From assembly GCA_021851325.1 (NCBI GenBank), contig JAJZDZ010000001.1:62001-126000 (forward strand): a stretch of DNA of 64,000 nt, read 5' to 3'. The position numbers were made by a program, and so were the translations under genes. Shown here in pieces: positions 4,341 through 30,105 of this stretch. Source of the DNA: Pseudomonadota bacterium (GTDB lineage: Bacteria > Pseudomonadota > Alphaproteobacteria > Micropepsales > Micropepsaceae). How positions within the stretch are numbered: the first letter of the stretch is position 1; the number at the start of each line of letters is the position of its first letter. Under the pieces are notes generated by a model that had not been told where the DNA came from, did not search any database, and saw only the letters and a list, made by a program, of their open reading frames with translations.

Positions 4341-7300
4341 TCAGGGACCCGGTTTGCCGTTCTGATGTCCCGGCGCTGGCCGGGCCGGAACGGGTGCCGT
4401 GGGAGTGCCCTCGAAAATCCGCCTCAGGATCCCGGGTGCCAACACTGAAAGCGGATTTACGCTCACGTCAGGCTCTTCGGCATTGCCCCTAACAGCATAC
4501 GAAAAGCCGAAGATACCCTCACCTTTCTTTGATACCAGCACATCGCCAAGGACCGGGATGGCGCCGAGGATCGAGTTGAGACCGTATATTGGGACCAGCG
4601 CGCCCTCGAGTGCCACGGTGTCGTTGCGCCGGTCAAAATAGCCGCTGCCGGTGACCCCTATGGCCGGTCCGCTGGCGCGGGCATCGACGATGTTGAGAAT
4701 TCCTGCATCCATGCGGAACGGCGCCATCAGTTTGTCGACAGCGATCCCCTTTCCACCCATGAGATTGATCAGTCCCGTAAGTGATCCTGCGGAAAACAGG
4801 CGGGTCAGAAAGGGCTGGTGTATCACGGTAAAGTTCGTCATATGCAGAACGCCCCGGTAATCAATGATCCGCTTGGCCGCCAACTCGCGCGCGGTCGGTT
4901 TGGGCGACAAGGTGGCAGTGAGTTCGAGATGGCCACCGCGAATGGAGCGAAAGCCGAAAAGACCGTTGAGGAGTAAGCCGGCATTGGCGGCTTGCAGGCG
5001 CAGGCGTCGCGTCCCGCCGCTGACCAGGATATCGGCCGAGACCTTGGCGGTTTTGGACAAGTCACCACTCAGGGCCAGCGTCTGTGGCCGGTCGCCCACC
5101 CCGCTCGCCGAGAAGGCAAAAGGCGACAAAACCACGCCATCATGCAAGGCGAGGCGATCAAGATTGGCATTAAACTGGAACGGCAACTCAGAGGGCGTCG
5201 CTTTATGCCCATGCGAGGCGGTCAGCTTGAGGCGATCGAGACCCGTGCCATCGGCCGAACGCCCAGAGATGCTGATGTTCAGTCCGGTTGTAGTGCTATT
5301 GATAACACGCAGGGCAAAATCATTTCGCGGTCCAGCATGCAGCTGCGGCATGACGAGCTTCACGAGTTTGCCGTCACTATTGAACTTCGCCGTACCCTGC
5401 CCATGCAGCGAGGCCCCTTTCAGCACCATCTGCCCGGACGCGATCTGCCCCTGATCAAGACGCAGGTGAAGCTGCATCCAGGCCGGAACACCTGCCGGCT
5501 TGTGATAATTGATGAGGTTGAGCGTGACGGTCGCCGGATCGAGTACGGCCTTTATATCTGCCGAACGGATATCGCCCCGATGACCGGCAAGCTTGGCGTC
5601 AATGGCCACCGGACCGGCCAGATAATCGCCAAAATCAAATCCTAGGCGGGCCCGCGCTGCGGCATCAAGGATTCCACGTGCCGTGATATGCGTGGTAGTG
5701 GGATCTTTGGAACTGAAGTTTTCATTCCAGCTCGCGTCCAGCAGTGCCCCGGCATAACCGATACGTCCCGCCACCTGCAACGCCTTGTTATTGACGGAGA
5801 ACGTTGCGGTGCCATTGCGGATACGATGGCGACCAATGCTGAGCGCAAGGTCTTGCACCTTGCCCTTCACGCGGATTGCGACGTCCTTCATGGCTACGTT
5901 GCGCTGCGCCGGGACCTCGACCGCCAGATCAATGCTCGCCTTTCCACGCGCCGTCCGTGACGCAACATGGAATTTGCTGGGATAGCGAAGCGGTGGCATA
6001 TCGATCAGCGACAGCACATCACCAAGTGCGCCCTCGACGTGACCACGAACGTGAACCACGTTGCTGGGCAGGTGCAGCTGGGCAATGGCTACGGAGCCTG
6101 CGCTGAGCTTTAGCACTCCACCACTTGGAGGGGTGATCATGGCGGAACTGACGCTGGCATGAAAGGCATCGCCGGAGAGCACTCCGGTGCCTGAAACCGC
6201 AGTCAAAGGGGCAAGGCCGCCCAGATAGGATATTGTCGCCCCACGGATCGGAAATTTGATCGCGATCCCGTTATCCGGAAGCACGGGCGCATCGAGGGCG
6301 CCGGCCGGCAGATCGATACTGAAGGTGGCAGGCCCAACTGCACCAGCGCTGACGTTGTGTGCAATCCATGTCCGCGCATCGCCTACCACGTCCAGCGGCC
6401 AGTCTTGCAGCAGATCCTTTACCGAGAGCGCAGCAAGATGGCCCTGGATAGAGATTGCTGGCGAGCTCTCTTTTGCAAGCGTCACCGTACCCGCTAAGGC
6501 GGCCGACAATGACCCGCGCACGAAGCGAAAATCATTGATGACGATCTGGTGCTGCGCCTGGGAGTAGCTGACACGGACCTCGCCGTGGGCCGGTAGCGTT
6601 GAGCCCGGCATGAGTGCCGGCATGCGTACCATCAGCCGGTCTAGATCAAGATCGACCTCAGCCGTCTTGAGGCCACCATGGACGTCAAAGCCGAGATTTC
6701 CCCACCCGCGTAGACGCCCGGAGAACTGTTTGCCCGAAACACTCGCATCGTCGATCAGGACCCGTCCCGTGCGGCCATCATAACGGCCGATCAGATGCAG
6801 CGAGCTGATCTGAAGCGTATGCTGGAGGGCATGGAACTCACCGTGCGCCCCGAGACCAAAATCGGCGTATGCAAGGCGACTTGCGCCCTGGTCGAGGCGA
6901 AAATTGGCCCGGATACTGGTCTTGAGCGCATAGGGTTTAAGGAACGACAACGCCTGCGCACCGCGACCCAGTGCGGACAACTCGAGCCCGGTCAGTTCGA
7001 TGTCGCCAAAGGCGGCCTTTTTGCCCTGCGGTACGACAAGATGGGCGCGAAGCTCTGCCGGTCGCCCCGAAACATCGAGCTCGGCAGCCAGATTGGCGAC
7101 CATCTGGGCAGGCTTGGTACTACGCCGTGCGATCAATAACTGCGCGGAAGGAGAGACGACAAAGAGGCCGCTGGGCTCGTCATAGAACGCGAACCGTGCC
7201 CGCCGCACTGCGAAGCCCTGAAGTCTGGACCGTCCACTCTGCTCGCTGAGGATCTTACGCAGACGGGCGAGAAGATCGCCCTGTCCGCGATCGCCGACGA

Positions 7301-15595: not shown

Positions 15596-16049
15596 GAAGG
15601 TAAACTGCCCCCCAAAGCATTTACGTTTCGTTAGCATATGCAGGAATTTGAATGAATCCGTCCGAGCCACTTGTCGCCGGGCAATGGAATACCTAAAAGA
15701 TACCGGTACTGCTTTGTCGCAGCGGGAACGGCATCGGGCTATCTGGTTAATTGAGCCCCCCAATCCTGCGGCACCTGACCGGCCGATGGCTGGGCTGGCT
15801 GAGAAGCCGGCTTGAGATCACGGTGGTGCTGGGACGGCAGGATGACCCGGCGGGCGATTGGCGTCTGCCGAAAATGTGAATTTGCAATGACCCACGACGC
15901 TTGGACCCTTACGACGCAGACCGAGGCACAGCCCCGGCGCGCGGGCTCCTCGCGCACCCCAACCACACGCCCTGTCCGCCTCATCGCTCCATCCGCCGCG
16001 TTCTTGCGCGTGCGGAGGATGCCCGCGCGCGGAGGGCCCGGAGAATTAA
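15596..16049. other. Divergent amidase / rne intergenic region, long rne leader
   Basis: About 454 nt without a supported gene. The half next to rne is GC-rich with several short self-complementary runs and ends in GGAGAATTAA just before the rne ATG, an ideal ribosome site. Long structured leaders allowing RNase E to control its own mRNA are known in enterobacteria; whether this leader does so is inference. No clear -35/-10 pair was found for either gene. Confidence 0.4.
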
Positions 16050-27254: not shown

Positions 27255-28499
27255 ATGTCCCAAGCCTTCCGCTTCGTGTCCGCTCAATCCCTGGGCCTTA
27301 AACCCCGCATCGGGGTTGCCGCCCTTGCCAAGCAGGCATTTGACGGCATCGATCTCAATCCCCTGTGGGGGGAACTCGTGGCCCGGCTACAGGCTGATAA
27401 TGCCGACGTTGAAGCCGCGATGGACCTTTCCGTCATCGCGCAGCTGCTCGGGCATCCCGAGCTCGGCAAGCAGCTTCAGGACGAAGCCCTGTGGGTGAGG
27501 CCGCTCTATCGCTCCGCCTCGGCGACTAAGAACCCGCGGCTTCGCCTGCTTGTCTTCGCCGCCGCCACCGATATGGGCGGCAACACTCCGATCGAGTTTC
27601 TACTCGAAGGTTCGGACATTGAAATCTATACCTATTATGTGGTCCCAGGCGGCGTGCAGCCCGAGCTTTTGCCGGACCATGACGTGGCCTTCGTGGCGGT
27701 CCCGGACTCTGATGAAACCCGCCTGACGCTGCATGAAATACAGCGACTGACCTTTGGCTGGCCGCGTCCTTTGCTGAACCTGCCCCGCCGCATTCGCGAT
27801 CTGGAACGCGACCGCCTGTTCAAGCTGCTCGATGGCGTTGCAGGGGTAAAGGTTCCCGCTACCTGCAGGGTCGACCGCGATGATCTCAACGATGTCCTGG
27901 ATGGCACCAGCACACTGAGCGATCTGGGAGCCGAACTGAGCTTTCCCTTCATCATCCGTCCCGTTGGCAGCCAGGCCGGCCGCGGACTTGAGCGCCTCGA
28001 AGACCCAGACGCCCTGCGTGCCTATCTGGACGCGTGCACCCACACCGATTTTTTCGTTTCGCAGTTCATCGATTACAGCGGCGATGACGGGCTGTTCCGC
28101 AAATATCGCATCGTGTTCATCGATGGCAGGCCCTTCGCCTGCCATATGGCGATCGCCGATCTGTGGAAGCTTTGGTACCTCAATGCCGGCATGGAGCAGT
28201 CTGAACTCAAGCGCACCGAAGAAGCTGAGTTCATGAGCAATTTTTCCTCCGGGATGGGAGCCCGCCATGCCAAGGCATTGGCCACGATCGCCCAACGGGT
28301 CGGGCTTGACTACTTTGCCATCGACTGTGCCGAAACCAGAGACGGCGACTTGCTGATCTTTGAAGCCGACATCGCCATGATCGTGCACAATATGGATCCT
28401 CCCGAGCTGTTTCCGTACAAGGGTCCACAGATGAAGACGGTTTTTGCCGCCTTCACCGCCATGATCGAGGCACGGGCACAAAAGGAAGAGGCAGCCTGA
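27255..28499 (+). CDS. ATP-grasp-like protein of unknown function
   Basis: Protein of 414 residues that I cannot assign to a named family. Residues 1-75 are helical (SQAFRFVSAQSLGLKPRIG..., then an ADNADVEAAMDLSVIAQLLG stretch), perhaps TPR-like. A Rossmann-like middle (about 92-170) precedes an ATP-grasp-like C-terminal half: FPFIIRPVGSQAGRGLERL resembles the nucleotide-binding Lys/Gly loop with Arg at the usual Lys, KYRIVFIDGRPFACHMAI resembles the central strands, and DYFAIDCAE plus LIFEADIAMIVHNM supply the acidic Mg ligands and an Asn-bearing end. This suggests a carboxylate-amine ligase. GAGG at 27245-27248 favours ATG 27255 over 27243. It precedes the rod-like small gene by 63 nt. Confidence 0.72.
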   Translation: MSQAFRFVSAQSLGLKPRIGVAALAKQAFDGIDLNPLWGELVARLQADNADVEAAMDLSVIAQLLGHPELGKQLQDEALWVRPLYRSASATKNPRLRLLVFAAATDMGGNTPIEFLLEGSDIEIYTYYVVPGGVQPELLPDHDVAFVAVPDSDETRLTLHEIQRLTFGWPRPLLNLPRRIRDLERDRLFKLLDGVAGVKVPATCRVDRDDLNDVLDGTSTLSDLGAELSFPFIIRPVGSQAGRGLERLEDPDALRAYLDACTHTDFFVSQFIDYSGDDGLFRKYRIVFIDGRPFACHMAIADLWKLWYLNAGMEQSELKRTEEAEFMSNFSSGMGARHAKALATIAQRVGLDYFAIDCAETRDGDLLIFEADIAMIVHNMDPPELFPYKGPQMKTVFAAFTAMIEARAQKEEAA

Positions 28500-28526
28500 T
28501 AGCCACCTGCTCGGTACAATTTGAAT

Positions 28527-28557
28527 AAAGATTTAGGAAACCCGTTGCCCAATCTTT
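28527..28557. repeat. Inverted repeat upstream of rod-like gene
   Basis: Perfect 7-nt arms AAAGATT (28527-28533) and AATCTTT (28551-28557) with 17 nt between, in an AT-rich gap that stands out from GC-rich surroundings. Candidate operator or weak hairpin; no T-run follows, so a terminator is unlikely. Confidence 0.35.
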
Positions 28558-28562
28558 AGCAA

Positions 28563-28904
28563 ATGGCGGCGATAATGGCCGGCATGTGGAACGCGTTTTC
28601 GATCTCCGCAAGTGGGCTTGCCACCAGTGCCGCGCAGCTGACCTCCGCTGCCAGCAAGCTGGTAAATGCCTTTACCGGGACCCCTTCCCCAGCTGCACAG
28701 GCGACCACCCAGACCGCGCCGGCAGCGCCAGCAACGCCCCCATCCCGGCCCCTCGCGGGGGCAACCGCCGTGGCGGCCCAGAACGCCACGCCGAATTCCT
28801 GGATGGTGGAAATCCTTTCCGCAAAATATGCCTATCGCGCCAACCTCGATGCGCTGAAAAGCGCCGATAAGATGGCGCAGAAGACCATCGACACCGTCGG
28901 CTGA
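28563..28904 (+). CDS. Small protein resembling flagellar rod (FlgC-type) termini
   Basis: Protein of 113 residues with two ends joined by a low-complexity middle. Residues 9-36 (FSISASGLATSAAQL...ASKLVNAFT) resemble the conserved N-terminal helix of axial rod proteins, in which SASGL and N-A are typical. Residues 80-113 (EILSAKYAYRANLDALKSA, then KMAQKTIDTVG) resemble the C-terminal helix (SRAYEAN...LKTAD...TIDILG). The middle (38-75) is Pro/Ala/Thr-rich and lacks the rod D1 domain. No other flagellar gene is in the window. It might be a real orphan axial-like coiled-coil protein or a decayed flgC. The start codon has no good ribosome site; ATG 28584 is possible. Confidence 0.6.
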   Translation: MAAIMAGMWNAFSISASGLATSAAQLTSAASKLVNAFTGTPSPAAQATTQTAPAAPATPPSRPLAGATAVAAQNATPNSWMVEILSAKYAYRANLDALKSADKMAQKTIDTVG

Positions 28905-29227: not shown

Positions 29228-29377
29228 ATGCCTAACTTTTCAAATAATTATGAAGTATTCTTGAGAAATCTTCAAAGCTCCGAAACCGCCGCTTCGGCAG
29301 CCTTCCCTGACGGCTGGAGCAGCCGCCAGCGAGAGCTTTACACCATGAGTTCGCAATGCGTGCACCCGCTCGTCTGA
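29228..29377 (+). CDS. Possible small upstream ORF overlapping aat start
   Basis: Open frame of 49 codons ([15 protein letters not shown]...) preceded by GGGAGAG about 8 nt before the ATG. Its first 16 codons are AT-rich, unlike neighbouring genes. It ends at 29377, overlapping the first 22 nt of aat in another frame. No homologue is recognised. It could be a real leader peptide coupled to aat translation, since aat itself has a weak ribosome site, or just the aat 5' leader. Confidence 0.3.
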
Positions 29378-30105
29378 CCCCGGAGCTGGTCCTGCGGGCC
29401 TATGCGGAAGGGCTTTTCCCGATGGCCGAAGCCCGCACTGACCCGAGCCTCTACTGGATCAGTCCCGATGCGCGCGGGATTATTCCGCTCGATGGCCTGC
29501 ATGTCAGTCACCGCCTTGCCCGCACGGTGCGAAGCGAGCGCTTCACGATCACAAGCGACCAGGACTTTCCGGCTGTGATTGCCGCCTGCGCTGCCCCCGG
29601 GCAGGGCCGCACCGAGACCTGGATCAATCGGGAGATCGAAAGCCTTTACACTGAGCTCTTTCACCGAGGCCATGCCCACAGCCTCGAGTGCTGGCAGGAC
29701 GGCGAGCTCGTCGGTGGCCTTTATGGCATCAAGCTCGGTGGAGCCTTCTTTGGCGAAAGCATGTTTTCCCGGGCGCGCGATGCCAGCAAGGTGGCCCTTG
29801 TCCATCTTGTCGCCCGCTTGAGAGCCGGTGGCTTCTGCCTGCTCGATACCCAGTTCATCACCGCCCATCTGGCCCGGATGGGAGCAATCGAGATCCCACG
29901 TACCCAGTACCATGACCTGCTCGATGATGCCCTGACCCGCTCAGGGGTTTGGCTGCGTCACTGCCCTGATCCGGGCGGCAGCACGATCTTGCCGTCCTTG
30001 GGACCCTTGTCAGGCGACACTGGCTTGACCGGCGTCGTCGGGGGCACTGGCGGACCTTCCTGGCCCGGCTGGTTGGTTTTGCAGCTGATCACCCAGACAT
30101 CATAA
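29356..30105 (+). CDS. aat: Leucyl/phenylalanyl-tRNA--protein transferase
   Basis: Cytoplasmic N-end-rule enzyme that adds Leu or Phe to proteins with N-terminal Arg or Lys, marking them for ClpAP. The 249-residue protein has the expected [19 protein letters not shown] start, [40 protein letters not shown], and [16 protein letters not shown]. The last ~50 residues are low-complexity and end LQLITQTS; I recall similar QTS endings in alphaproteobacterial Aat, so the tail may be genuine. That tail overlaps the convergent DUF2155 gene by 148 nt. The ATG at 29356 has no strong ribosome site of its own. Confidence 0.94.

Follow-up and report, generated by a model that had tools for sequence, protein, structure and literature searches.

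The locus carries an ATP-grasp gene, A, followed on the same strand by a short gene, B, whose product resembles the axial protein FlgC. The window, as we call the whole 64-kb stretch of DNA that was analysed, lies on contig 37 of a 3.53 Mb genome (G000; 103 contigs, 98% complete). A motif search points to a conserved element between the two genes, and aat lies downstream of B. The features discussed below are as follows:

27255..28499, + strand: gene A, predicted ATP-grasp enzyme of 414 aa with a helical N-terminus (AlphaFold2 (AF2) model, Foldseek matches, invariant columns).
27315..27497, + strand: residues 21-81 of A, four TPR-like helices (DSSP of the AF2 model; profile matches to TPR chains).
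28516..28530, + strand: candidate upstream element of B, ACAATTTGAATAAAG (family consensus AAATTTGAATCAAA; motif search with controls; aligned in G023 and G005).
28584..28904, + strand: gene B, mini-FlgC protein, 106 aa from a conserved ATG (113 aa from an unconserved ATG at 28563).
28593..28676, + strand: N-terminal helix of B, residues 4-31 (AF2, low confidence; pN 0.015 against G023).
28677..28790, + strand: Pro/Ala/Thr-rich linker of B, replacing the FlgC middle (AF2, profile alignment; pN 0.184 against G023).
28791..28898, + strand: C-terminal helix of B, residues 70-105, Flg_bbr_C-like (Pfam and profile matches, AF2; pN 0.032 against G023).
29356..30105, + strand: aat, leucyl/phenylalanyl-tRNA protein transferase, neighbour of B (PF03588, E 4e-68).

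Gene A is predicted to encode a stand-alone ATP-grasp enzyme with a ligase-type fold. Its reading frame is open and intact from the ATG at 27255 (MSQAFRF), a start also present in the G023 orthologue, to the stop codon ending at 28499. Matches to family libraries are weak and lie under the curated cutoffs (PF08443, E 0.0036; TIGR00768, 6e-5). The AF2 model, based on a 31-row alignment, has a pLDDT of 93.6, and Foldseek searches with this model return LysX/ArgX and D-Ala-D-Ala ligases (Ddl) first and the graspetide ligase PsnB at rank 14, the top hits to LysX, Ddl and PsnB having E-values between 1e-11 and 6e-11 and TM-scores by query of about 0.4-0.5. The alignment contains 26 invariant columns, including R235, K283, R285, D357, E370 and H378, which we take to be ATP-grasp active-site residues, and this conservation suggests that A is an active enzyme. 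Fold and conserved active-site residues thus place A in the ATP-grasp superfamily, in agreement with the first-pass annotation, which had described an ATP-grasp protein with a helical N-terminus. A differs from LysX/RimK, Ddl and PsnB in its weak sequence-family matches, its TPR-like N-terminus and the neighbours of many of its relatives, which adjoin a gene for a PLP decarboxylase and another whose product Pfam does not recognize. The A-family profile matches tetratricopeptide chains across the N-terminal helices, a support that is partly built in because a branch of the family that carries TPRs contributes 3 of the 31 rows; in one relative from this branch, L062, the N-terminal part contains clear TPRs.

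Gene B encodes a small protein that resembles both ends of FlgC and lacks its middle domain. The ATG at 28563 is replaced by ATA in G023 and is absent in G029, and the ATG at 28584 is common to all four aligned sequences, so that translation more likely starts at 28584; the reading frame given earlier as 113 residues is present and its product is likely 106 aa long. B matches the FlgC family TIGR01395 with an E-value of 2.9e-6 and 27.6-28.2 bits against a cutoff of 102.1, missing the equivalog threshold, and by itself this match covers the C-terminal half. Pfam Flg_bbr_C (E 2.6e-4) falls just below cutoff, and FlgC in PDB entry 7bin is matched with an E-value of 3.7e-6. A 40-row profile of the mini family (A2) aligns with both ends of 7bin FlgC (E 1.3e-13), and the 7bin middle has no counterpart in the profile. 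These matches bear out the initial description of two axial-rod end helices joined by a Pro/Ala/Thr-rich linker; we take the paired end helices to be the D0 part of the axial protein. The AF2 model of B contains two long helices and one short helix (residues 61-66) within the linker, but is poor (pLDDT 54.5), and a Foldseek search with it gave no match. FliE and other small rod-base proteins, which sit at the base of the rod, are likewise about 100 aa long and mostly helical; no FliE family is found among the Pfam and NCBIfam matches of B or the first rows of its profile matches. Unlike flgC, the gene lies away from a flgB-flgC-fliE arrangement and upstream of aat, with a candidate element of its own.

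Sequence comparison of the nearest orthologues indicates that B is under selection. Pairwise comparison of G000, G005 and G023 gives Nei-Gojobori dN/dS values of 0.112, 0.126 and 0.103, and these three sequences contain no frameshifts or stops. Between G000 and G023 nonsynonymous change is concentrated in the linker, with low pN in both helices. Comparisons with the more distant G029 yield dN/dS values of 0.32 and 0.27 for two pairs, the third not being computable, at synonymous change near saturation, and the contrast between helices (pN 0.27 and 0.37) and linker (0.56) is weaker.

Mini-FlgC genes recur in the genus, in genomes that also match the axial profile elsewhere, and are found beyond it. 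The A2 profile was built from 40 of 45 stretches, leaving out L167 (a near copy of L168), L185, L187, L193 and L201; L072 and L073, duplicates of L044 and L045, were dropped, and the mini set excludes true FlgC (L095 and L184 at 1675), L199 and L200 (second FlgC-like, with their own flagellar neighbours) and other axial fragments. Among 69 genomes of the genus, 58 have some match to the 40-protein profile and at least 31 carry a mini gene, a count that represents our reading of the matches listed with true-FlgC places and long axial ORFs set aside (the sequences retrieved do not include G058). No mini gene is discernible among the matches listed for the other 27 of the 58, so flagella can apparently do without the mini protein. 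In every one of the 31 mini genomes the axial profile has one or more additional matches; a simple draw, uncorrected for relatedness, would leave all 31 outside the 11 genomes that lack other matches with a probability of 7e-4. Across the class, 189 of 385 genomes match the first profile, many of these matches looking like FlgC itself by ORF length and place, and short orphan mini ORFs are also found in other families of the class. Plasmid records contain no match to B or to the G182 mini protein. A literature search conducted largely outside subscription journals, covering FlgC paralogues, truncated, orphan or second FlgC, the C-terminal domain of rod proteins and accessory rod parts, returned no description of such a family.

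Within the same genomes, mini proteins and FlgC form separate groups. In the genome studied here, a full-scoring FlgC (146.6 bits) is encoded on contig 42, where a FlgB-like ORF precedes flgC and, as read by eye, fliE-, fliR- and flhB-like ORFs follow it; further axial ORFs lie on contigs 13 and 51. The genome thus carries flagellar genes on other contigs, a point the first-pass annotation had wished to see checked, and its statement that no other flagellar gene lies nearby holds for axial proteins, B being the sole Flg_bbr_C or FlgC match on its contig (E up to 10). Of 15 mini genomes covered by the FlgC search, 14 encode a FlgC above cutoff, the exception being G017, which is 82% complete. 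A 60-row tree of 40 mini and 20 FlgC sequences separates the two sets by a single branch with 100/100 support; the tree is unrooted, and long branches are common among the mini proteins, which diverge fast compared with FlgC (of 20 FlgC regions fetched, filtering removed G002 and G072, and several FlgC rows are incomplete at their N-terminal end). Family members range from about 70 to 140 aa in length. A FlgC-like middle is kept in the members from G017, G047, G372, G363, G398 and G098, none of which reaches the FlgC cutoff. B is assigned to an orphan, fast-diverging mini-FlgC family.

The adjacency of A and B is confined to three related genomes. In searches of 100 genomes each, A is matched in 17 and B, at an E-value of 0.01, in 18, of which 4, including G000, match at E-values below 1e-15. 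The two genes stand side by side in the same orientation in G000, G023 and G029; the G005 contig begins 51 bases before B, which leaves too little sequence to show an upstream neighbour. The mini gene lies upstream of aat at eight loci (the window, G023, G029, G005, G049, G100, G021 and G022), in four of which a small ORF of doubtful reality intervenes, and G049, G100, G021 and G022 have no A gene beside it. At nine further loci (G053, G032, G026, G038, G002, G007, G010, G043 and G019) the mini gene is found near ffh, prolyl oligopeptidase, dapF or methylthiotransferase clusters, identities resting on one checked member of each cluster. Some of these genes also lie near the mini gene in G299 and G201, which belong to another family, and the remaining mini loci are in other places (all ORF maps are script-made and do not represent gene annotation). 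Small ORFs trail the mini gene in G007 (L178:6458-6921), G010 (L179:6565-7124), G032 (L172:5514-5813) and G038 (L176, after the mini gene at 6397); four small ORFs behind mini genes were compared with Pfam, none scoring above cutoff.

These distributions bear on the proposal that A is a ligase, graspetide-like or RimK-like, that modifies B as a small protein substrate. Consistent with such a pair are the co-oriented adjacency in the three genomes and the resemblance of the A fold to LysX and PsnB. The first-pass annotation had held that the pairing would fall if homologues were never adjacent in other genomes; taken literally that did not happen, A and B being neighbours in two other, related genomes. 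However, relatives of B occur without A upstream of aat and in other places, and 27 of 29 A-family loci, some cut by contig ends, lack B, which is not the side-by-side arrangement by which graspetide pairs are recognized. The B linker, read from the translation, holds no Asp or Glu, making a graspetide-type ring there unlikely; the C-terminal helix contains some of these residues, and no graspetide core is defined. Because A and B are each conserved apart and B has its own upstream element, we reject the ligase-substrate pair, to which we give very little credence. A and B are most likely two unrelated genes, and their proximity is probably a lineage-specific accident of location, as the alternative of chance adjacency raised at the outset would have it.

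A palindrome-like candidate promoter element is conserved about 60 nt ahead of the mini-gene start codon in the genus. The copy upstream of B, the best-scoring site in the window, starts 17 nt past the A stop codon, at a distance of 68 nt from the ATG at 28584; a second window site at 15643 was dropped as it overlaps a long ORF. A motif search of 29 upstream regions, controlled by shuffles of base pairs, returned AAAATTTGAATCAAA, which starts 67-69 nt before the ATG in 23 of the 29. After removal of the near copies G005, G023 and G442, the remaining 26 regions give a likelihood of 187, compared with 48-62 for eight control gene sets of the same loci (30 random starts for the mini set and 12 for each control set), and 22 of the 26 sites lie within 2 nt of one position, compared with 3-5 in control genes, which were picked by a simple ORF script and surely include some wrong starts. 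The element is weak or displaced in G014, G055, G047, G051, G048, G446 and G442, and inspection by eye does not reveal it before 14 mini genes from outside the genus whose upstream region is complete. A different sequence, AAGTCATTGATTTTATTACATTTTCTTGAC, is common to G285 and G182, where it lies upstream of the mini genes at L188:3022-3342 (- strand) and L192:6292-6615 (- strand).

The element is rare away from mini genes. The surroundings of 20 genus mini genes, 236.6 kb in all, contain 28 sites of at least 14 bits, counting both strands, 27 of which lie just before the mini gene or just after it, ahead of the next small ORF; the motif was learnt from these same loci, and its rarity elsewhere is the informative part. 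Similar elements precede a second small ORF behind the mini gene in G032 (76 aa) and G038, and weaker versions are visible by eye at this position in G007 and G010, two genomes with a third small ORF further along. Among five genomes counted, the exact palindrome TTTGAWTCAAA occurs once per genome in G100, G021 and G038, always before the mini gene, and four times in G037, once before the mini gene, once between flagellin-like ORFs and twice inside predicted ORFs; it does not occur in exact form in G000, whose own site has diverged. A reversed control pattern was found once, in G100. The G037 copy between two flagellin-like ORFs (L225:1501-1511, TTTGAATCAAA) is all that hints at a connection between the element and the flagellum.

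Two identities considered for the element were discarded. GANTC, the CcrM site, is contained in 11 of 19 sites and is not a common feature. The element does not behave as a general flagellar promoter either: the scanned flagellar-gene stretches of G000 (L095-L097; 48.7 kb with axial, fliE-, fliR- and flhB-like ORFs) contain no site of at least 11 bits, so that co-regulation with the flagellum is not supported. The flgB gene of this genome is preceded by TTAA-N7-TTAA, which we liken to a CtrA box. In the part of the literature accessible to our search, the papers listed for the letters of the element include one on a Shewanella Fnr regulator.

We tentatively propose, with a confidence slightly short of an even chance, that A and B are independent and that B is a non-essential accessory subunit of the flagellum. 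A would be a stand-alone ATP-grasp enzyme placed beside B by an accident of lineage. B, which appears to retain the paired end helices in a family many of whose members keep little or nothing of the middle, would be transcribed under its own element, potentially bound by an activator, exported through the flagellar type III machine and packed with the rod or its base; the activator, export and assembly are steps we infer. Two observations argue against a simple structural role: the family is patchily distributed, and the scanned flagellar stretches lack the element. An alternative, which we consider unlikely, is that B is a conserved FlgC-derived protein working in the cell or outside the flagellum, for example as a helical decoy or regulator of export proteins, under a regulator of its own. 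Orphan locations, the lack of the element in those same stretches, fast divergence compared with FlgC and presence in 31 of 69 genomes among the matches listed are all in keeping with this alternative, whereas the further axial-profile matches in all 31 mini genomes argue against it, as does the fact that the end helices, the packing parts of axial proteins, are what is conserved. That B is a decaying flgC copy, as had also been suggested, could account for its FlgC resemblance without the middle and for the variable lengths in the family. We regard decay as highly improbable and reject it because of the dN/dS of 0.10-0.13 among nearest orthologues and the breadth of the family; the fixed position of the element, the presence of an intact FlgC in 14 of the 15 mini genomes searched and the fully supported split between the two sets also speak against it.

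In the accessory-subunit reading, the mini proteins could represent an undescribed accessory flagellar class, FlgC cut to its end helices and orphan in Alphaproteobacteria, with an almost private promoter element, TTTGAWTCAAA, in the genus and two further small proteins in some genomes; we regard this wider claim as possible and rather doubtful. The axial proteins of the flagellum are commonly treated as an invariant set. If the claim is true, an optional part, or a regulator, would be added to a heavily studied machine, revealing which part of FlgC can act alone. The analysis also corrects the tempting ligase-and-substrate reading of neighbouring A and B.

A-family genes form a cassette in other genomes. 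Among the 29 A-family loci, with the truncations mentioned, 16 contain the PLP decarboxylase, 13 the second gene (c2), 12 both and 2 B, the window being a third locus with B. The decarboxylase is a group II PLP decarboxylase (PF00282 in the copy tested), found beside the A-family gene at L046:7314-11598 and other loci. The c2 product is about 450-540 aa long with an invariant S-K pair; searches with the L046 copy in Pfam (E up to 0.1) and NCBIfam (E up to 0.01) gave no match, nor did the c2 profile match any PDB sequence. The literature open to our search yielded nothing on the cassette, and ATP-grasp protein, decarboxylase and c2 possibly constitute an undescribed small-molecule pathway. The genome studied here has no c2 match (5 of 61 genomes have one). 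Its closest decarboxylase shows about 30% identity to the cassette enzyme, and the cassette decarboxylases are 52-88% identical to the L046 copy; A therefore looks like a solo copy in this genome. In G049, A is located inside a cassette on a different contig from the mini gene. In two metagenome-assembled genomes (L074:6532-14204 and L076:1123-8845) the cassette lies between CheB/HDOD/HD genes and flgA, flgB, flgC, flgD and flgE, with families checked for L074 and assigned via shared clusters for L076.
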